The position numbers and the translations under genes are program-made. The notes beneath the pieces are model-generated. The model saw only the letters and a program-made list of their open reading frames with translations. It was not told where the DNA came from and ran no database searches. Source: Chondrocystis sp. NIES-4102 (lineage in GTDB: Bacteria; Cyanobacteriota; Cyanobacteriia; Cyanobacteriales; Xenococcaceae). From it: a stretch of DNA of 64,000 nt. Positions 6,047 through 20,782 of the stretch are shown here, in pieces (the stretch's first letter is position 1; each line of letters opens with the position of its first letter). The DNA is taken from positions 2,418,001-2,482,000 of the forward strand of contig AP018281.1 in the NCBI GenBank assembly GCA_002368355.1, read 5' to 3'.

Positions 6047-6065
6047 ATAGGATGCAGCTTCCTAT
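6047..6065 (-). repeat. Hairpin at the 3' end of tnpB (candidate right-end subterminal palindrome)
   Basis: Perfect 6-bp stem atagga/tcctat around a 7-base loop, overlapping the tnpB stop codon. IS200/IS605-family elements carry a subterminal hairpin at each end, and the RNA from this end commonly forms the guide RNA (omegaRNA) scaffold of TnpB. Confidence 0.5.
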
Positions 6066-7240
6066 CCAACAGACTGCCGAGTAGTAGACTTCTTGCGTCC
6101 TCCACTACTGGGTCTAACATCTGGACAATAGGCTTTATCCCGCGTTCCGCAGGTCAGTAATCGAAGACCCTCGTCTCTGAGGGAAATTGCCGCGTTGATA
6201 TCTCTATCGTGATGTGTATTGCAACTAGAACAAGTCCAGAATCTGACATCAAGAGGCAAGCTACCAGCTAGATTCAAGCACACATGGCAAGTTTTACTCG
6301 ATGGGAAAAATCTATCTACTTCTAAATATATTTTTCCTGACTGTTCTGCTTTATATTTGAGCATGGTACAAAATTGACCCCAGCCAACTTGACTAATGGC
6401 TTTGGCAAGCTGGTGGTTTTTGACCATGTTCTTAATTGCGAGATTTTCCAACACCAAAACTTGATTCTCATTCACTATCCTTCGCGATAGCTTGTGATGG
6501 AAATCTTCACGACAGCGATTAATTTTGTTATGTACCTTAGCTACTTTAACCCGTGATTTATTTCTGTTGTTACTTCCTTTCTGTTTTCTAGATAGCTGCT
6601 GTTGCTTAAGTTTAAGGTTTTTTTCATGTTTTTTGAGCCATCTAGGATTGTCAAACTTTTGAGAGCTTGATGTAATACAAAAATGAGTCAAGCCTAAATC
6701 TAATCCTACTGCTTTACCTTTACTACTTGGCTTTGGTAATTCTTGCCCATCTTCAAACATTAGACTTGCAAAATACTGGTCACAACTATTTTTAGTTATA
6801 GTGACTGTTCTAATCTTGCCTTCAATTGGACGATGGATGACCGCATCTATCCAGTCAAGTTTTGGAAAATAGATTTTATTTTGTCCTAGCTTGACATTTT
6901 GAGGATAGGTTAAAGATTGCTTCCCATGCTTAGATTTGAACCGAGGATATTTAGCTCGTTTTTCAAAGAAATTAATAAATGCTCTGCTTAAATTCAGGCA
7001 TACAAACTGAAGAGACTGAGAATAGGTTTGCCTCAGCCACTCTGTATCTTCTTGCTTTTTTAACTTGGGTAATTGCTTAATTAGATCGTATTTAGCAATG
7101 CCCTTGCCTGTTTCTTTATAGGTTTGGTTAGTCAAAGCCAAAAAGTAATTCCAAACCCAACGAGTTGTACCGAAAGCGTTGGCTAATGATACTTTCTGTT
7201 GTTCGGTTGGGTAAATTCGTACTTTGACTACTTGCAGCAT
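6062..7240 (-). CDS. tnpB: TnpB RNA-guided endonuclease (IS200/IS605 family, solo copy)
   Basis: A 392-residue intact TnpB/OrfB. It has an N-terminal helical domain opening VVKVRIYPTEQQ, the RuvC-like residues Asp181 (GLDLGLTHF), Glu265 (LVLENLAIKNM) and Asp347 (HHDRDINAA), and a zinc finger with CHVC (318-321) and CSSC (337-340). All catalytic positions are kept, so the enzyme may be active as an RNA-guided nickase or nuclease that promotes element retention. No Y1 transposase tnpA is adjacent, so movement would need TnpA in trans. It lies between glgC and dnaJ. The start is ATG at 7240, giving the usual MLQVVKVRIYP N-terminus. Confidence 0.95.
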   Translation of the reverse strand: MLQVVKVRIYPTEQQKVSLANAFGTTRWVWNYFLALTNQTYKETGKGIAKYDLIKQLPKLKKQEDTEWLRQTYSQSLQFVCLNLSRAFINFFEKRAKYPRFKSKHGKQSLTYPQNVKLGQNKIYFPKLDWIDAVIHRPIEGKIRTVTITKNSCDQYFASLMFEDGQELPKPSSKGKAVGLDLGLTHFCITSSSQKFDNPRWLKKHEKNLKLKQQQLSRKQKGSNNRNKSRVKVAKVHNKINRCREDFHHKLSRRIVNENQVLVLENLAIKNMVKNHQLAKAISQVGWGQFCTMLKYKAEQSGKIYLEVDRFFPSSKTCHVCLNLAGSLPLDVRFWTCSSCNTHHDRDINAAISLRDEGLRLLTCGTRDKAYCPDVRPSSGGRKKSTTRQSVG

Positions 7241-13630: not shown

Positions 13631-13844
13631 GGGTTTTTCTCCACCAAAAATGGTTTTTTATATACTGACAATTGTCTGTATAACTAAGTTCCTTAAGCAA
13701 TTAAACTTAATTATCCTCAATCAGCAATACCCATTTACTGCATAATATTAACTTGAATGTAAAAAATGGATGGTTATTAATATGATATACTCTCTACATA
13801 AAAACTAGAGTCTTATACAAACATACTACAGTTATAGTTTTAAG

Positions 13845-13861
13845 GAACAAATAAGGAATGG
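13845..13861 (+). repeat. Candidate left attachment repeat of the integrative element
   Basis: gaacaaataaggaatgg at the integrase start matches gaactaataaggaatgt at 19067-19083 at 15 of 17 positions. It overlaps the integrase Shine-Dalgarno and start codon, so chance similarity between ribosome-binding-site-like sequences is possible. Confidence 0.3.
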
Positions 13862-15339
13862 TTAGACTAGTATCAGAACAGCTACCTAATGATGGCGGGT
13901 ATCACGTCAAACGCTTAGTAGACGAGGCGAACAGCCGTTTAGAGCAAATAGGGAGACGAGGTAAGAGAGCAAAAATAGTAGCTAAACGTAATTCACTAAC
14001 GGTACAGTTTAATTTTAATGATGGTAACGGTAGCCCTCAGAAGAATGTCGGTTTAGGCGGTATCGTTTTAAACCCTAAAGGAATAGATGAAGCTGAAAGA
14101 ATAGCTTCACTAGTTACTGGTCAATTAGCAGCTAATCAGTTCACTTGGGACTGGTATAACGCCTTAATAGGTAAAGACACATCTGAGAAGGCTAAAGCAC
14201 TTACCTGTAAAGAGATGCTAGAGGAATATAAGGCTCATTACTTTAAGCAGAGAAAGGGTAACAAAACTCCGCAAAAAAGTTGGTACGAGGGGTATAGACA
14301 GATTGAAGCGATTATATCTGAATTGGACAAACCTATATCCTTATCTGTGATTAGACAGATTGTAGATTTAACAGAGAACAACAGTCTTGTTAGGACAAAA
14401 ACTCTTAACGGGCTAGTAGCGTTTTTCAAGTACTTTGATAACAGCGACTACAAGACAATTGTTAAGGAATACAAAGCCAACAATAAACCCGAAGCTAGAA
14501 ATAAAAGCGTACCTAGTGATAAACGTATAGCCGAGGTTTATAGAACTGGGTTTGAAGTTCCAAGGCTAGGTAGAAAAGATTATTTGCATAGATATTCTCA
14601 ATGGCAGTTTCTTTACGGTTTATTGGCTACTTACGGACTACGAATACATGAAGCGTGGAATATAGCCAACTGGGATAAACCAGTGACTCTTAAGAGTGGG
14701 GATTGGGTCATAGTAGATGATGGTAATGATAATGAAACGGCTACTCAACACACATCAGGTGACGTGGTAATCCCTGCAATCCTAGATCCAGATAATAAAG
14801 ACCATATACTGTGTATCAAGCACACCACTAAAACTGGCTACAGAATGGCTATGCCTCTTTCTCCAGAGGGTTCTAACTGGATACAGGAATTTAATCTTTT
14901 ACAGCCTTTAAATTTACCTGATATTAAAGACCCTTTAAAGATCCAGAATCAGGGGCGAGGTAGCTATAACTGCACTAGCCAGTCCTGTCGATGGTTCAGA
15001 GATCACAAATACGGATTTACCGCTCACGCTCTACGCCATGCTTATAACCACAGAGGGCATCTACTAGGCTATAACCCCAAAGTCTTAGCGGATAGCTTAG
15101 GGCATTCACTACAAATGAACAGTGACAATTATCTAAGACATATGAGTGCCGAAGTAAAGCTACAGGGAATGCTAGACAGTATTAATAAGGACAAAGAAAG
15201 CCGTTCTGAACTAGATAGAGTTAATGCTGAAAACAAGGCTTTAAAAGACGAAGTAACCCACCTTAAAAATGAATTAGAGCTACTTAAGACTAAACTAAAA
15301 ATGTATGAAGCGATAGAAGATAGCAGGAAACAGAAATAA
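13858..15339 (+). CDS. Tyrosine recombinase / phage-type integrase
   Basis: A 493-residue integrase. The C-terminal catalytic domain shows an Arg in LATYGLRIHEAWNIANW, the H-x-x-R box in TAHALRHAYNHRG, the His in LADSLGHSLQMNS and the catalytic Tyr in SDNYLRHMS. A coiled coil (about residues 445-490) follows the catalytic domain. The N-terminal part is a DNA-binding region with a core-binding-like stretch. The enzyme would integrate and excise the element. Shine-Dalgarno aaggaa lies just upstream. Codon use and lack of HIP1 sites set it apart from its neighbours. A strong terminator follows at 15450. Confidence 0.92.
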   Translation: MVRLVSEQLPNDGGYHVKRLVDEANSRLEQIGRRGKRAKIVAKRNSLTVQFNFNDGNGSPQKNVGLGGIVLNPKGIDEAERIASLVTGQLAANQFTWDWYNALIGKDTSEKAKALTCKEMLEEYKAHYFKQRKGNKTPQKSWYEGYRQIEAIISELDKPISLSVIRQIVDLTENNSLVRTKTLNGLVAFFKYFDNSDYKTIVKEYKANNKPEARNKSVPSDKRIAEVYRTGFEVPRLGRKDYLHRYSQWQFLYGLLATYGLRIHEAWNIANWDKPVTLKSGDWVIVDDGNDNETATQHTSGDVVIPAILDPDNKDHILCIKHTTKTGYRMAMPLSPEGSNWIQEFNLLQPLNLPDIKDPLKIQNQGRGSYNCTSQSCRWFRDHKYGFTAHALRHAYNHRGHLLGYNPKVLADSLGHSLQMNSDNYLRHMSAEVKLQGMLDSINKDKESRSELDRVNAENKALKDEVTHLKNELELLKTKLKMYEAIEDSRKQK

Positions 15340-15449
15340 GAACTAATAGCCGTTTGCTGTCAGATAGCTTACACGAGAACGATAGAGATATATCAAAACG
15401 AATATAAACAAATAAAGTAATCAAATCTTAAATACAAGTAACCAAGCTA

Positions 15450-15485
15450 ATCAAAGATTCCTTATAAGAGTCTTTGATTTTTTTC
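15450..15485 (+). terminator. Rho-independent terminator after the integrase gene
   Basis: Perfect stem atcaaaga/tctttgat with a 13-base loop, followed by a run of seven T residues. Confidence 0.85.
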
Positions 15486-15641
15486 TGACAATAGTAAACA
15501 TTACACTAATAGCTACTATAAACATAAAGCACAACTAATAATTTTAAATTAGCTACCCTCGGCAGGATATATATACTAGGGCTGCGTCAACAGCAAAGCT
15601 TGAGTAATAGAGAGTTATTTTTATAAGATTATTTACGAGCA

Positions 15642-15697
15642 TTACCCATTACCTAAATAGTTGCACAAAAACGTGCAACTATTTTAGATACGCCTAC
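15642..15697 (+). repeat. Palindromic element E1
   Basis: Left arm ttacccattacctaaatag, inner stem aaatagttgcac/gtgcaactattt around loop aaaaac, right arm ttttagatacgcctacc. The outer arms are shared with E2, E3 and E4; the inner stem is different but still self-complementary. Confidence 0.7.
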
Positions 15698-16101
15698 CAA
15701 CTCACCCAAAACAGTACTAAGTTCTTTTTTAGTTTCAATTATTAGTTGCTCAATCATCTCAAGCTAGTAACAAACGATAATACTAAAATACATCAGATAA
15801 TCAATAATCATTATACTGATGCTAATAGTTGTGACTGCTAAAGTACGTTCTAATCAAATTACGTCCTATAGGTCGCATATATAATGAGTGATAATATTCC
15901 TTGAGGGCTGCCTAAATAAAAAAATAGTCTAAGCGATAGTTAGTCAAGTACTAGCTCGTAGAGTCGAAGTGAAACGGAGATACTGGACGAACGAGAGCGA
16001 AGACGTAAAATAACCAATAACAAGCCCCTAAAGAATGTTATCTGAAATACCTACAGTCTGTAACCTAACAAAAAGCTTAAATTCATCTCAAGTCAATGTA
16101 A

Positions 16102-16158
16102 GGGGGCATATATAAAATAGTGTCACTTTAAAGTGTCACTATTTAGGTAACGGGTACA
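16102..16158 (-). repeat. Palindromic element E2
   Basis: On the minus strand the left arm reads tacccgttacctaaatag and the right arm ttttatatatgccccct. The 30-bp core at 16115-16144 is a palindrome (aaatagtgtcacttt and its near-complement) with one mismatched pair. It is the same design as E1 but in opposite orientation. Confidence 0.7.
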
Positions 16159-16237
16159 CTAGTGGTTAATCTACAAAGTAAATAAGTATTTTTTTATACA
16201 TACCCAAGAGAATCTAACTAAGGTAATTAGTGAGTAA

Positions 16238-16294
16238 GGGAGGGTATCTAAAAACGTAATACGTTTTTATATTACGTTTTAGGTAACGGGTATA
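16238..16294 (-). repeat. Palindromic element E3
   Basis: On the minus strand the left arm is tacccgttacctaaaa and the right arm ttttagataccctccct. The inner stem is aaaacgtaat/attacgtttt (16251-16260 and 16271-16280) with a 10-base loop. The sequence taggtaacgggta after the palindrome is identical to that of E2. Confidence 0.65.
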
Positions 16295-16459
16295 GGGTAA
16301 CTGTAAGTAAAGCTTAGTTCCAATTTCTACGAGTACTTGTATCCTAATTCGACAGCTTAAAGTTAAGCAGCTATAACAGTACAGGAATACTAGGTTAGGG
16401 TAAACAGACAAAAAAAAATAAGCCCTGTCAAGAGAACTCACTTTTAATCACTAAGCATC

Positions 16460-17458
16460 ATGATAAAACCAAATATCCAAAGCAGCAACAAGCAGTTATT
16501 AGTTGTAGAAAATTGTTCTAGTAATACCACGCTATCCCTTCATAATACTCTTTCTCTTACTACTAATAGCTTTAACTATCTTTTACCTACTAAAACTTAC
16601 TCCCAATTTAAATTTCTCAAGAATTTTATTCACTTAGATTATCTACGTTTAAGTAGTAATAATTTAACTAAGAAATCTTTTGACTCACTAGTAGATTTTG
16701 TGTTTGATAAGCAGGAAACAAAAACAATAAACAAGCCTTGGCATCCTGACCCTAAGATGCCCCAAAGTAAGAAATATCAAAACATAATTACATCAAGTTC
16801 AGGAATAACTTTAGGTTATACAAAGAAAGCCAAAAATCGAGGTAAAAACATTAGACACGTCTATGACATAATGCTTGACCTATCAGGGGCTTATTTTGCC
16901 AAATTAAGCCTACTAAAACAGCAAAAGGTTATTAGCTACCTAAACATTAATTGGACGTTTAAATGCCATCGGATTGATGTAGCCATAGATGATTATTCAC
17001 ATAAGCTTATACCTGTTATTGAGATGAAAAAAGCTTTTAAGCTTGGTTACAATTTTGGGTTTTCGGTAATAGATGATAGCTATTTCAAAATCACTGATAA
17101 TCAGTTTGAAGGTACTTTAGCCATAGGTTCTAGACGTTCAAGTTTATTTATCAGAATCTACACCAAGGGTAAAGATTTTGTCAGATATGAAGCTGAATTG
17201 AAAAGGCAAAAAGCCCAAGGGTTATTTAATCAAATAGCTAACTTAGAAGTGGATAAGACTCTAGCTAATGATTTAATTGTAAGTTTTGCTATAGTCTTAG
17301 CTGAAGCTGCTTTATCTAGCATAGACTTTAGGAATAAAGATAATATTAGCAGTCAGAAGAATATGACCAAGAAAAGAACTGATAGGTTATTTTTCTGGCA
17401 AGATTTTATAGATAAGGTATTAGTAACTATTGATAATCAGCTACTTGATAATAATTAA
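16460..17458 (+). CDS. Replication initiation protein of the Rep_trans (rolling-circle) type
   Basis: A 332-residue protein. The central block KCHRIDVAIDDYSHKLIPV and, downstream, GSRRSSLFIRIYTKGKDFVR followed by YEAELKRQKA match the Rep_trans (PF02486) pattern of plasmid and conjugative-element initiators that nick the double-strand origin by a Tyr. The first 65 residues are Ser/Thr/Asn-rich and unrelated. This implies the element replicates, or once replicated, as a rolling-circle plasmid. No mobilisation or transfer gene is seen. A hairpin terminator lies 72 bases after the stop. Confidence 0.75.
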   Translation: MIKPNIQSSNKQLLVVENCSSNTTLSLHNTLSLTTNSFNYLLPTKTYSQFKFLKNFIHLDYLRLSSNNLTKKSFDSLVDFVFDKQETKTINKPWHPDPKMPQSKKYQNIITSSSGITLGYTKKAKNRGKNIRHVYDIMLDLSGAYFAKLSLLKQQKVISYLNINWTFKCHRIDVAIDDYSHKLIPVIEMKKAFKLGYNFGFSVIDDSYFKITDNQFEGTLAIGSRRSSLFIRIYTKGKDFVRYEAELKRQKAQGLFNQIANLEVDKTLANDLIVSFAIVLAEAALSSIDFRNKDNISSQKNMTKKRTDRLFFWQDFIDKVLVTIDNQLLDNN

Positions 17459-18329
17459 TTTATCTTGAGGGTTAAAGATGACTATAAGGATACATTAAGC
17501 ATTGTTTGAAGGGTATACAGGTATTAAGTACTGGCAACTTGAATAAACATTATTGCCAGTCTTTATCTAGCTGTAATTTATCTTGATTAGGGTGAATATA
17601 ACCTACAGTCTGTAAGGTTAATTAAGTACTATTGAGCTTACATTAAGCATCTAGATGCTCGTTAATTGACCAGCTATGAATTCATAGTAAGTGTACTTAG
17701 AGATATTGCTTTTGTTGGTTTTATTGGTAGCTGACTAATATATCTATGAGTAGGTTCAGATTACGGGTTAGTTGTAATAAACTAACCTTCTTTTAAAACA
17801 ATTGGAACATGGGACTATTTTGTATCTGTTGGATATTAAGCCATGCGGTTATTTATTCTATCTGTTTTGGTTGGTTGAGGGTTTGAGCTTTATTTGTATA
17901 TCTTCTGAGTCTATGGTTATTTCGTTAAGAGTAAGGGTTAGTTTTATTGCTTTTGTAAGTAATGGACGTTAATTAGAAATGACTAAATGTAGGGGTATAT
18001 AACATCTATCGTCTTTACTAATTGTCGATAGATACATAGCAGTAGTATTTAATTGGTTTTTGGTAGGATGTGTTTTAGTCAATAACAGATGTGAAAAATA
18101 AGCGTCTAACCTTTTTGTTTATTTGAAGAGTCATAAAAGATATTAGACTGTCTCTACTAGCGATATAAAGCTCATTCTAGATTACTTCTTTTTAATGAAC
18201 AGTAGAAAGACTTACATGAGTATTTACGTTCTCAACCTATAGTACTTGAGATACCTACTTATATATCTACTCGTTATCTTCAACGTTATTTCTTAATCAT
18301 CTCTGGCTAATTTAGACAACACCTATATC
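17459..18329. other. AT-rich region after rep with no convincing gene
   Basis: No open frame of convincing length or start is seen in about 870 bases. Contents: the rep terminator (17530-17566), the second copy of acctacagtctgtaa (near 17600), which here is nearly palindromic with the following ggtt, and a hairpin ctatcg...cgatag near 18007. Confidence 0.55.
17530..17566 (+). terminator. Probable Rho-independent terminator after rep
   Basis: Stem actggcaa/ttgccagt with a 15-base loop, followed by the moderately T-rich ctttat. Confidence 0.6.
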
Positions 18330-18491
18330 TTGTCCGCCTGTGAGCAATACCAAAAAAATAACGACCTACAGATAAAGATGGTTTCAATGATTGCTGACCC
18401 TGGCGATAAGGACGAAAGGCTAGCATTACTGACAGAGCGTCAGCATGAAATCAAAAAGATTGAATTAGCCCTAAAAGCTCTAGCTAACTGA
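18330..18491 (+). CDS. Small ORF in the integrative element, 53 aa, helical
   Basis: An open frame ending at TGA 18489 encodes a charged, helix-forming product, with LQIKMVSMIADPGDKDERLA and ERQHEIKKIELALKALAN at its end. The composition looks protein-like and differs from the AT-rich stop-filled DNA upstream. The start is unclear: TTG 18330 or ATG 18378. No family is recognised. It may be a regulator or accessory protein of the element. Confidence 0.4.
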   Translation: MSACEQYQKNNDLQIKMVSMIADPGDKDERLALLTERQHEIKKIELALKALAN

Positions 18492-18562
18492 ACCTAACAG
18501 ATAGTTAAGTAGGGGTTATCGGGTGGCATTCCCTGGTAGCCCCTAGGGCTGGGGAGGGGGTA

Positions 18563-18757
18563 GTGGAAATAGCTTATATAAAGACCACCGAATTTAGGCG
18601 ATATGAACCCCTGGGGACTGGTAGGGAATTAATAGAGCTGCTTAGTAATTTGTATATACCAATTCGTCTAGACGGAAGTATGTACAGAAGTAGGGGACGC
18701 TACCTAAATAGTAATACTTTAAAGTATTACTATTTTATATATGCCTACTCTGACTAA
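18563..18757 (+). CDS. Possible small protein, 64 aa, overlapping palindrome E4
   Basis: GTG start with a strong Shine-Dalgarno (ggggaggggg) 4-6 bases upstream. The product begins MEIAYIKTTEFRRYEPLGTG and looks protein-like up to about residue 45; the last part is encoded by element E4, suggesting that E4 invaded or caps the reading frame. The function is unknown, and it may be a truncated gene. Confidence 0.35.
   Translation: MEIAYIKTTEFRRYEPLGTGRELIELLSNLYIPIRLDGSMYRSRGRYLNSNTLKYYYFIYAYSD
18694..18749 (+). repeat. Palindromic element E4
   Basis: Left arm acgctacctaaatag, perfect 30-bp palindrome at 18706-18735 (aaatagtaatacttt and its complement), right arm ttttatatatgcctactc. Compared with E2, bases 8-10 of the stem changed from gtc to aat together with their pairing partners, so complementarity is kept. 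Confidence 0.7.
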
Positions 18758-18789
18758 ACAAATAAACAGAATATAGGTACTAAAGGAAT

Positions 18790-19017
18790 ATGTCGTTATT
18801 TAGACCGCTCAAAGTGATTCAGTTGCCCATCCCTGCTACCGCCTGGGATGCCATAGAGAAGCTAGCAAGCCTCAAGGGGATGTCTTTACAGGAGACTTTG
18901 ATTGTTATCTTTAACAAGGGGATTATGAGCGCGTTGTACCACGAAGAAATAGAAGGGGTATCTAAGACAGAACTTTGTGTAGAATTAGAAAATCACCGAA
19001 ATAAATATAAGGAATGA
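18790..19017 (+). CDS. Small conserved-looking protein, 75 aa, possible DNA-binding
   Basis: ATG with Shine-Dalgarno aaagga 6 bases upstream. The product has a strand-like start (SLFRPLKVIQLPIPATAWD) followed by two helices with KLASLKGMSLQETLIVIFNK, an arrangement like a ribbon-helix-helix or small partition/copy-control protein. I cannot name a family. It is the last gene of the element before the candidate right attachment site. Confidence 0.5.
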   Translation: MSLFRPLKVIQLPIPATAWDAIEKLASLKGMSLQETLIVIFNKGIMSALYHEEIEGVSKTELCVELENHRNKYKE

Positions 19018-19066
19018 CTAAGGACTAAAAGCCCCTATTAAAGCGGTTAATTAGCCTGGTACTTAT

Positions 19067-19083
19067 GAACTAATAAGGAATGT
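19067..19083 (+). repeat. Candidate right attachment repeat of the integrative element
   Basis: gaactaataaggaatgt, the partner of the repeat at 13845. The spoIID-like gene's stop codon (TAG on the minus strand, 19070-19072) lies inside it, so insertion would have occurred at the 3' end of that gene. Confidence 0.3.
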
Positions 19084-20782
19084 TCAAGGAAAATAACCCT
19101 TCCTTAATATTCCTTAAAGCTGTAAAGCCCTTGCTGTATGCGGTTTGGGTAGAAACAAATTTAATATAAGAAGAGGCTGTCTGATCATCCCAAAAAACAA
19201 TCGTATTATTTAGGGGTTTAAGTTCAGTTTGAGGATAATAAAAAGCCAAAATTCGCTCTGCTGACCAACCTAAATTAGCTAAATTATAAGAACCATATTG
19301 GCTCAAACCAACACCATGACCAAAACCACCGCCAATAAAAGCATAACCATCGAGTTGATTATTCTTATAAAGTGGTTGTAGATAGAAGAAAGTACTGCGA
19401 GGGGGTTGCAACGCACTGCGAATTTCATTTTTATGTAACTCTATTGTACCTTTATCAGTTTCGATATTAAGAGTTAAAATTCTGCCAGAAGGCGATCGCT
19501 CTTGAACCTGCATTGAATAAATAGTTTGAAAGTCTGCCAAAGGATGACGGGTTTTCTGGAGATATTTGCGTAAATCTTGATTAAGATCGGCAATACTACG
19601 CTTTTTGTGCCAACGAAACACCCCTTCTCTCACTGTTTCATTAAATCCTTTAGTCATGTTGATAAATTGACGAAAAGTTTGCTCATTATCGAGAGGATAT
19701 TTAGCCAAATCCCAAAGAGGTATTGGTGCATCAATGACTGACTGAAGATAAGGACGAGCCTCACCATTCCAAGCATCTTCAAAACGTGCGGTAACACCAC
19801 CAGTGGTAGAAGAATAAAGAGCATCGATCAATTCATTTTCATAAGTTAGAACCAAGCCTGCGGTATTGGCGATCGCGCGATCGCTGATGGGATTAGCATC
19901 ATTCAAGCCCTTATATACCTGACAGTGAACTGTAGCACAAAGCTGATAATCATCCACAGCAAAACGCCTGAGATTGCGTAAGGCATAGGTACGAGCAATA
20001 ATTGTTTGGGCTGCTACCGCTTGAGGGGGGGCATTAGCACCAATTTCATAGGGAACTACGCCTCGTAAATAGGTTTCTAAAGGAACATCATTAACTAAAG
20101 TGTATTCACCATGAGCATTAGGTTGTAGCTTCAAACTACCGCCATAAAGACGAGTTTCTTGGGGATTATTAGTAGTATTGACCTTAACTAAATTTTTGCT
20201 GCTAGTAATTTCTACTTGCTGGTGGTTATATTGCTTACCATCAATAATTAAAGTAATTTTAGGTTGCTGGTTAAGAATTTCCGTATCTAAATAAGGGGTT
20301 GTATACCCATTGGCTTCTAGACTGTGAAGTAACCAACGACGAACCAAGGGAGTAGGATAAACCTCTCTTTTCGCCCATACTTGCCAGCGTCCTGGTTGAG
20401 CTACTTCTACCGCAATACCTAGTTTTTGCCAAAATTTGGCAGTATCTTCCGCCGTTTCAAAGGTAGAGCGATCGCTTAAAACTAATTTCTCATCTAATTT
20501 AGATTGAGGGAGGGGGACAGAATCTACTCTTAATACCACCTCTTTAGTAGTAATTGGTGCAAGTTTTGGAAAACTAACCTTTAAAGAATCATTCTCTGTA
20601 CTATTAATTGTAACTTGTTTAATTTCAGACTCTTTTTCATCCATAGGTGCAGCACCTAATCGCTGGATAATGCCGATTTTCAAATTAATTTCTGAAATTT
20701 TATCAGTAGTGGCGATCGCACTCTGCATTCCCCAACAGCTAATCACCCAGAAAACACCAAGGCAAATTCTTGTCTTCATCAT
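19070..20782 (-). CDS. SpoIID/LytB-domain protein, secreted amidase-activator type
   Basis: A 570-residue protein with a signal peptide (about residues 1-24). The SpoIID/LytB domain runs from VNDVPLETYLRGVVPYEIGA through AAQTIIARTYALRNL to GFGHGVGLSQYGSYNLANLG near residue 515. SpoIID proteins cleave denuded glycan strands or activate wall amidases; in cyanobacteria they are common and non-sporulation-related. The last residues (LFSLNIPY) lie at the candidate right boundary of the foreign element, so the native C-terminus may have been altered. A GATC-rich HIP1 pair sits within the gene near 19.87 kb. Confidence 0.88.
   Translation of the reverse strand: MMKTRICLGVFWVISCWGMQSAIATTDKISEINLKIGIIQRLGAAPMDEKESEIKQVTINSTENDSLKVSFPKLAPITTKEVVLRVDSVPLPQSKLDEKLVLSDRSTFETAEDTAKFWQKLGIAVEVAQPGRWQVWAKREVYPTPLVRRWLLHSLEANGYTTPYLDTEILNQQPKITLIIDGKQYNHQQVEITSSKNLVKVNTTNNPQETRLYGGSLKLQPNAHGEYTLVNDVPLETYLRGVVPYEIGANAPPQAVAAQTIIARTYALRNLRRFAVDDYQLCATVHCQVYKGLNDANPISDRAIANTAGLVLTYENELIDALYSSTTGGVTARFEDAWNGEARPYLQSVIDAPIPLWDLAKYPLDNEQTFRQFINMTKGFNETVREGVFRWHKKRSIADLNQDLRKYLQKTRHPLADFQTIYSMQVQERSPSGRILTLNIETDKGTIELHKNEIRSALQPPRSTFFYLQPLYKNNQLDGYAFIGGGFGHGVGLSQYGSYNLANLGWSAERILAFYYPQTELKPLNNTIVFWDDQTASSYIKFVSTQTAYSKGFTALRNIKEGLFSLNIPY

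Follow-up and report, generated by a model that had tools for sequence, protein, structure and literature searches.

Why should a palindrome change its sequence from copy to copy and still keep the ability to fold? This question is raised by a 64-kb stretch of DNA (the window) of Chondrocystis sp. NIES-4102, forming part of a 4.5 Mb contig (AP018281.1) in a genome of 5.0 Mb, where a small integrated element carries four hairpin sites, designated E1 to E4, around a gene for a Rep_trans rolling-circle replication initiator (Rep). It is well supported that the E sites are real structured DNA sites of a little-described family of elements; their function is predicted below from comparative data. 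No description of such sites was found in the literature searched, the coverage of which leaves out most subscription journals.

Hairpin sites of the integrated element

The initial annotation of the window described four palindromic elements with common outer arms and variable inner stems, and all four were recovered at or within a few nucleotides of the positions it had given, in the same orientations (Table 1). They belong to an element of about 5.36 kb with the order integrase, E1, E2, E3, rep, E4, small open reading frame (ORF) and right end, of which the genome holds three copies: W (window), A (locus L009, at C1:1.42 Mb) and C (locus L011). The arms do recur together. A search of the whole genome with the pattern TACCTWAA-N12..40-TTTTADATA gave 15 matches, 12 of which are E sites with arms exactly 24 nt apart, four in each element copy; the other three lie elsewhere and have different spacings, and the same pattern read backwards produced no forward and one reverse match. 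A covariance model built from the seven distinct sites of this genome found the same 12, its nine further rows being the reverse strands of the same stems. Neither the arm pattern nor the model revealed an E site outside the three elements, which does not favour the suggestion that each site is a mobile mini-element, although inside an element copies of a site appear to arise by duplication and inversion.

Table 1. Features of the integrated element and its hairpin sites (window coordinates)
Feature	Position	Strand	Basis
Integrated element, copy W of three	13783..19140 (approximate limits)	+	similarity to copy A (L009)
Tyrosine integrase, 493 aa	13858..15339	+	PHROG integrase family phrog_1, E 1.7e-11
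Terminator-like hairpin and T run, 3' of integrase gene	15449..15479	+	
Hairpin site E1	15641..15698	+	arm pattern, folding, covariance model
Hairpin site E2	16101..16158	-	arm pattern, folding, covariance model
Hairpin site E3	16237..16294	-	arm pattern, folding, covariance model
Rep_trans rolling-circle replication initiator, 332 aa	16460..17458	+	PF02486, 4cij, phrog_453
Possible conventional Rep_trans nick hairpin, weak	18004..18033	+	8-bp stem, CTAA in 14-nt loop
Hairpin site E4	18692..18749	+	arm pattern, folding, covariance model
Small ORF, 75 aa	18790..19017	+	
Right end common to W and L009	19007..19140	.	98.5% over 134 bp

The left arm TACCC[GA]TTACCTAAA, attributed to all four sites, is present in E1-E3 only, and E4 has just its inner half, TACCTAAA. 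The stem sequence, described as free, does vary with pairing kept, and the E4 stem is different in each of the three element copies; however, columns 21-22, 26, 34-35 and 39-40 of alignment A3 (G-T, A, G-T and A-C) are invariant in the seven distinct sites. All seven have CTAA at the stem foot, while the loops are not conserved.

Folding and covariation of the stems

Folded as DNA, the seven distinct sites gave z values from -3.1 to -7.3; five were more stable than all 200 of their shuffles, E3 than 199 and E4 of copy C than 198. In the stem alignment 94.5% of cells are paired and 13 contain double changes; six of the 13 pairs are invariant and six have changed on both sides. None of 500 shuffles reached the observed percentage paired, the number of cells with a double change or the covariation score, while the number of pairs with a double change was reached by 24 and that of further pair types by 218. 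When the partner was slid by one to three columns, pairing fell to 26-51%. In 27 sites from 14 loci the two halves pair better with each other than with those of other sites (mean 11.2 against 5.7; 0 of 20,000 permutations as good), a result that is partly by construction, as most of the relatives' sites came from hairpin scans; for the seven own sites, which were found by their arms, the values were 12.4 and 7.7, with 9 of 5,040 orderings as good. The sites are related, so that these covariation and pairing probabilities are not independent.

Individual comparisons show how the stems change. E2 and E4, said to differ by three compensatory changes, differ by two fully compensatory pairs, the third position being an A.A mismatch in E2 and an A-T pair in E4. 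Between copies W and A, 8 of the 24 stem positions of E4 differ, against 9 of 170 flanking positions (18587-18780; Fisher p 0.0002), and here three pairs were exchanged whole and one turned into G.T.

The same hairpins could in principle act in RNA. As RNA the four window sites fold with -11.5 to -16.4 kcal/mol, and the succession of A-run, stem and T-run, the intergenic positions and the location of E4 just 5' of the small ORF would suit a terminator, an RNA hairpin or an operator with no role in DNA processing, or else inert repeats spread by homologous recombination. An explanation of this kind is distinctly unlikely, since a simple consensus scan found none of the four to be terminator-like and a better candidate after the integrase gene (int), no Rfam family matches at the sites, and this reading accounts neither for the constant 24 nt between the arms of the 12 own sites nor for the conservation of their outer arms. 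The RNA hairpin offered by the initial annotation is not borne out, the sole Rfam match, RF00447, being far below its gathering score and outside the sites.

Distribution of the sites

Elements of the same genus with Rep proteins 54-60% identical to that of the window (L043, L044 and L045, the last in two pieces) have hairpins with similar feet and other stems, as do those with Rep 30-34% identical in L046 (same family) and L047 (same genus). Altogether, E sites lie beside rep in nine of 12 Rep loci, namely the three own copies, L043-L047 and L049, where the hairpin is weaker; L048 has a half-site, and L050 and L051 have none. The expectation that inner stems stay complementary in further copies holds for most of those seen, with the exception of the site at L047:6214. 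At its centre that site has the letters of its neighbour at 6079, as would result from recombination of two sites at the apex. In L048:6900-7330 (genome G002) the C-terminal part of rep directly follows an integrase remnant, and an E-like sequence then comes cut near the hairpin apex.

Of 14 same-genus sites, eight have CTAA at the foot of the stem. A fixed 36-nt motif (CTAA, GT-N3-AY twice, A[GT]A), derived from the sites themselves, had 17 matches in 293 kb, all in such elements, and none in the reversed sequence; a looser motif without the right arm gave 15 rows, two of them outside elements, and one control match. The short right arm was rejected as a marker: its seven matches in 13 genomes of the genus had no E site in the surrounding DNA that was examined.

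The covariance model was then applied to 80 genomes, nine of which have a Rep homologue. At E <= 0.1 it matched six of the nine and two of the 71 others (Fisher p 7e-6), or 6/9 against 1/18 within the family (p 0.0017); leaving out the own genome gave 5/8 against 2/71 (p 5e-5; family p 0.0045). At E <= 0.002 the counts were 4/9 and 0/71 (p 8e-5), and 4/9 and 0/18 within the family (p 0.007). The three Rep genomes lacking a match (G002, G003 and G011) do have sites under the model threshold. The matches in G025 and G072 (per-genome E 0.029 and 0.0055) are about what chance would yield in 80 genomes, and so would be the single match in G007 (E 0.02) but for its E-like arms. The E-bearing elements have at least three integrase types, with Rep as the gene in common, and at the genome level the sites are tied to Rep better than to any single integrase.

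Matches in G007, G015 and G022 are not beside rep. In G007 a 14-kb region (L072) has another integrase and, by reading, two hairpins with E-like arms; in G022 seven loci are matched and in G015 one (L081), the right arm TA[CT]GC being on the matched strand in seven of these eight loci and on the other strand in L079. In five of the seven G022 loci (L073-L077) a tRNA gene is found at 302-325 bp from the site, and the tRNA is a different one in each. L073-L079 and L081 form a multi-copy locus family with several hairpins near contig ends, and the interiors of these loci may be collapsed repeats. In L081:4618-5337 a REP-associated tyrosine transposase (RAYT) gene, with relatives in G017 and G022, lies 117 bp from an E-like hairpin, a point of likeness to repetitive extragenic palindromes (REP) and their transposases; an origin of this type was rejected for the own genome, which like G002, G003, G007, G011 and G013 has no relative of the transposase at E <= 0.001.

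Wider searches added little. With Rep as the query, a phage collection returned nothing and a plasmid collection one relative (pCYLM01, 24%). A scan of viral contigs gave 47 pattern stretches and no relative, and one of genome contigs gave 65 pattern stretches and two loci, apparently the G003 and G011 contigs again.

The Rep protein and a possible role of the sites

The window Rep matches PF02486 with 30.6 bits, over the curated cut-off of 29.6, and also phrog_453; a profile of five Rep relatives matches the solved Rep 4cij (E 1.1e-7). The protein is 100% identical in three places of the genome. Compared with the catalytic motifs listed in PMC5714925, it keeps D60 (motif N'), R171/D173 (RxD, motif I), Y234 (Tyr of YxK) and R242/E244 (RxE, motif IV), all invariant across four aligned homologues, while motif II and the Glu of YxKxxE match only partially. 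The AlphaFold model (mean pLDDT 45) was too poor for use.

According to PMC9371924 and PMC13107129, Rep_trans enzymes cut CT'AA in a hairpin loop and have a plasmid-specific palindromic bind site nearby; for Rep_trans/MOBT enzymes the nic sequence has been published as CT'AA (PMC9371924), and the hairpin origin of an archaeal relative tolerates a structure-preserving change (PMC13107129). The double-strand origins (dso) and origins of transfer (oriT) of pT181, ICEBs1 and ICESt3 resemble the present case in a Rep_trans initiator within the element and a palindrome beside CTAA. They differ in that the E sites have CTAA at the foot instead of in a GC-rich loop, number four in two orientations, and have different stems within a single element.

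The initial annotation had considered a structure-dependent protein-binding or replication-origin role, with which the Rep_trans gene lying among the sites is compatible, binding and cutting being predicted only. The explanation preferred here, tentatively and with rather less than even confidence, is that the E sites are origin, terminator, nick or transfer sites read partly by shape by the Rep_trans proteins of these elements, in cis or in trans. When one strand is exposed, the variable palindrome would fold and present to Rep_trans a conserved foot, made of the left arm (often CTAA) and the right arm (TAYGC or a variant). The protein would cut or rejoin at the arms, the predicted cut position, so that the sites could serve as multiple origin, termination or transfer points, and elements with no rep of their own would presumably use Rep_trans in trans. 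Stems would be free to drift in compensating pairs because such a site is read by its folding. E would then be a modified Rep site or else a site distinct from it.

Several observations weigh against this proposal. CTAA is at the stem foot and not in the loop as in published nic sites, a look for CT'AA in the hairpin loop giving no such arrangement, and six of the 14 same-genus sites lack it, as do the examined sites of G022, G015, L049 and L083. Four sites in two orientations are unusual for an origin, E4 is without most of the left arm, and the site at L047:6214-6249 has both arms and no stem (z +0.99, with 174 of 200 shuffles folding equally well). Mutating the loop put an end to replication in the archaeal relative (PMC13107129). 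A candidate of the ordinary type exists at 18004, although 13 of 100 shuffles hold one as good, and the usual arrangement, with CTAA in the loop, is found in two small replicons whose Reps are distant, L052 (near 481-520, pCYLM01) and L070 (2313). Four more distant Rep loci (L052, L058, L070 and L071) showed no E site; conversely, L072 and the G022/G015 loci have sites and no Rep_trans was found there. For the genome-level association, kinship is a confounder removed only as far as the within-family counts, the model was built from own-genome sites only, and single matches near the threshold may be chance.

L070 (G214:C3, 6,075 bp), probably a small plasmid, has copies of the Rep_trans gene 2,461 bp apart and a GC-rich hairpin with CTAA in its loop. 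The GC-rich segment 18495-18640 of the window was rejected as an origin, its fold having a z of just -1.5 with 14 of 200 shuffles equally good.

The sites could instead be oriT-like, serving another relaxase from a conjugative or mobilizable plasmid and hitchhiking on many unrelated integrative elements, the order being hairpin, about 8 nt and then, as nic, the conserved [TA]A[CT]GC arm. Such a geometry resembles that of relaxase substrates, which have a hairpin, an eight-nt U-turn and nic (PMC4814116). Conservation of the right arm extends to more sites than that of CTAA, one site lies about 100-400 bp inside the ends of several elements, and the own genome encodes a MobA/MobL relaxase on contig C5. 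This alternative, the next in likelihood, is nonetheless unlikely: no E-like hairpin was found in the 12 kb around that relaxase gene (G000:C5:1-12000) and none was found in this genome beyond the three elements; the left arm is conserved as well; several copies per element in both orientations would be unusual; and of nine genomes tested, every one with E-type sites, only three were found to have MobA_MobL. The MOBQ oriT of RSF1010 shares the hairpin followed by about 8 nt and a conserved sequence, and own sites often read GCC there, a presumed likeness in letters. The C5 contig (L084, 22 kb, plasmid-like) also has a ParA-like ORF and a 1,075-aa ORF, both named by eye.

It is improbable that the hairpins are second-strand or primosome-type origins (sso/ssi), priming the complementary strand and read by host enzymes. 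Single-stranded intermediates are expected for Rep_trans elements, and the shape is conserved with variable sequence in elements with different genes, but the sites occur in both orientations and their restricted distribution suits a dedicated factor better than a host one.

Sites at module borders and element ends

Copies W and C have ten differences between 15764 and 18587 and remain similar through E4 to about 18760. Outside the two breaks, one of them 67 bp to the right of E1 and the other about 11 bp beyond E4, they are unrelated, except for 83% identity over about 155 bp after int. W and A have one difference from about 15380 to 18586, which places their left break away from E1. In copy C, E1 and its flanks look like E3 turned round (77% over 84 nt). 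L043 and L044 have in common an 82-bp segment, 12-15 bp from an E stem in each, but its orientation is inverted between the two and it is on opposite sides of rep. These comparisons suggest duplication and inversion of sites inside elements. Several rearrangement borders thus have a site, which ordinary homologous recombination between sites could also cause. E4 is 375 bp from the tRNA in copy C and 391 bp from the end of shared sequence in W and A.

Under the Rep_trans proposal, strand transfer or recombination between site copies would swap or invert neighbouring modules. An extension to a full cassette system, with shape-read hairpins marking module borders and Rep_trans strand transfer swapping or inverting integrase, rep and cargo modules within and between elements, rep-less ones included, would be speculative and has a low probability.

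Borders of swapped or inverted modules are also where integron attC sites would stand, which are likewise short and folded, with a conserved foot and a variable paired stem; E sites would then be single strands folded for a tyrosine recombinase. CCTAA and TTAG, in E1 and E3 only, bear a possible resemblance to the R'' and R' boxes. An attC-like role is quite improbable, given that the E arms stay alike over at least three very different integrase types. Short repeats in common at the ends of L009 and of L010, and tRNA-end duplications in L011 and L043, suggest that the integrases have att sites of the ordinary kind. No protein exceeded the cut-off of an integron-integrase model, and no cassette array is shown; the L083 integrase has a match, below the cut-off, to a XerA/integron-integrase model, and the other integrases match Phage_integrase or show a weak, sub-threshold likeness to Xer/XerA.

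If the E sites are read by their folding, by Rep or another enzyme, they would form, next to integron attC, a further class of DNA sites recognised by shape, and one could test directly how integrases are traded by small integrative elements that keep their replication module. Even if ordinary, they mark a group of mobile elements in cyanobacteria that is poorly described.

Other features of the element and its surroundings

Copies W and A are 94.8% identical across 13783-18782, similarity resuming at the right end, and have different flanks, while copy C is bracketed by a 37-bp repeat of a tRNA-Val end (L011 6119 and 11526). The window integrase, with no Pfam or NCBIfam family above cut-off, is 84% identical to that of copy A and 22% to that of copy C. 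The 75-aa ORF has no family in Pfam, NCBIfam or PHROG searches, and L009 has another, different 75-aa ORF in its place. The last codons of a SpoIID-domain ORF (19070-20782) are inside 19007-19140, the sequence common to the right end of copy A, and the 3' end of this gene seems, from the sequence comparison, to be supplied by the element insertion. Upstream of the element the window has a TnpB-type (OrfB_IS605) gene at 6062-7240.

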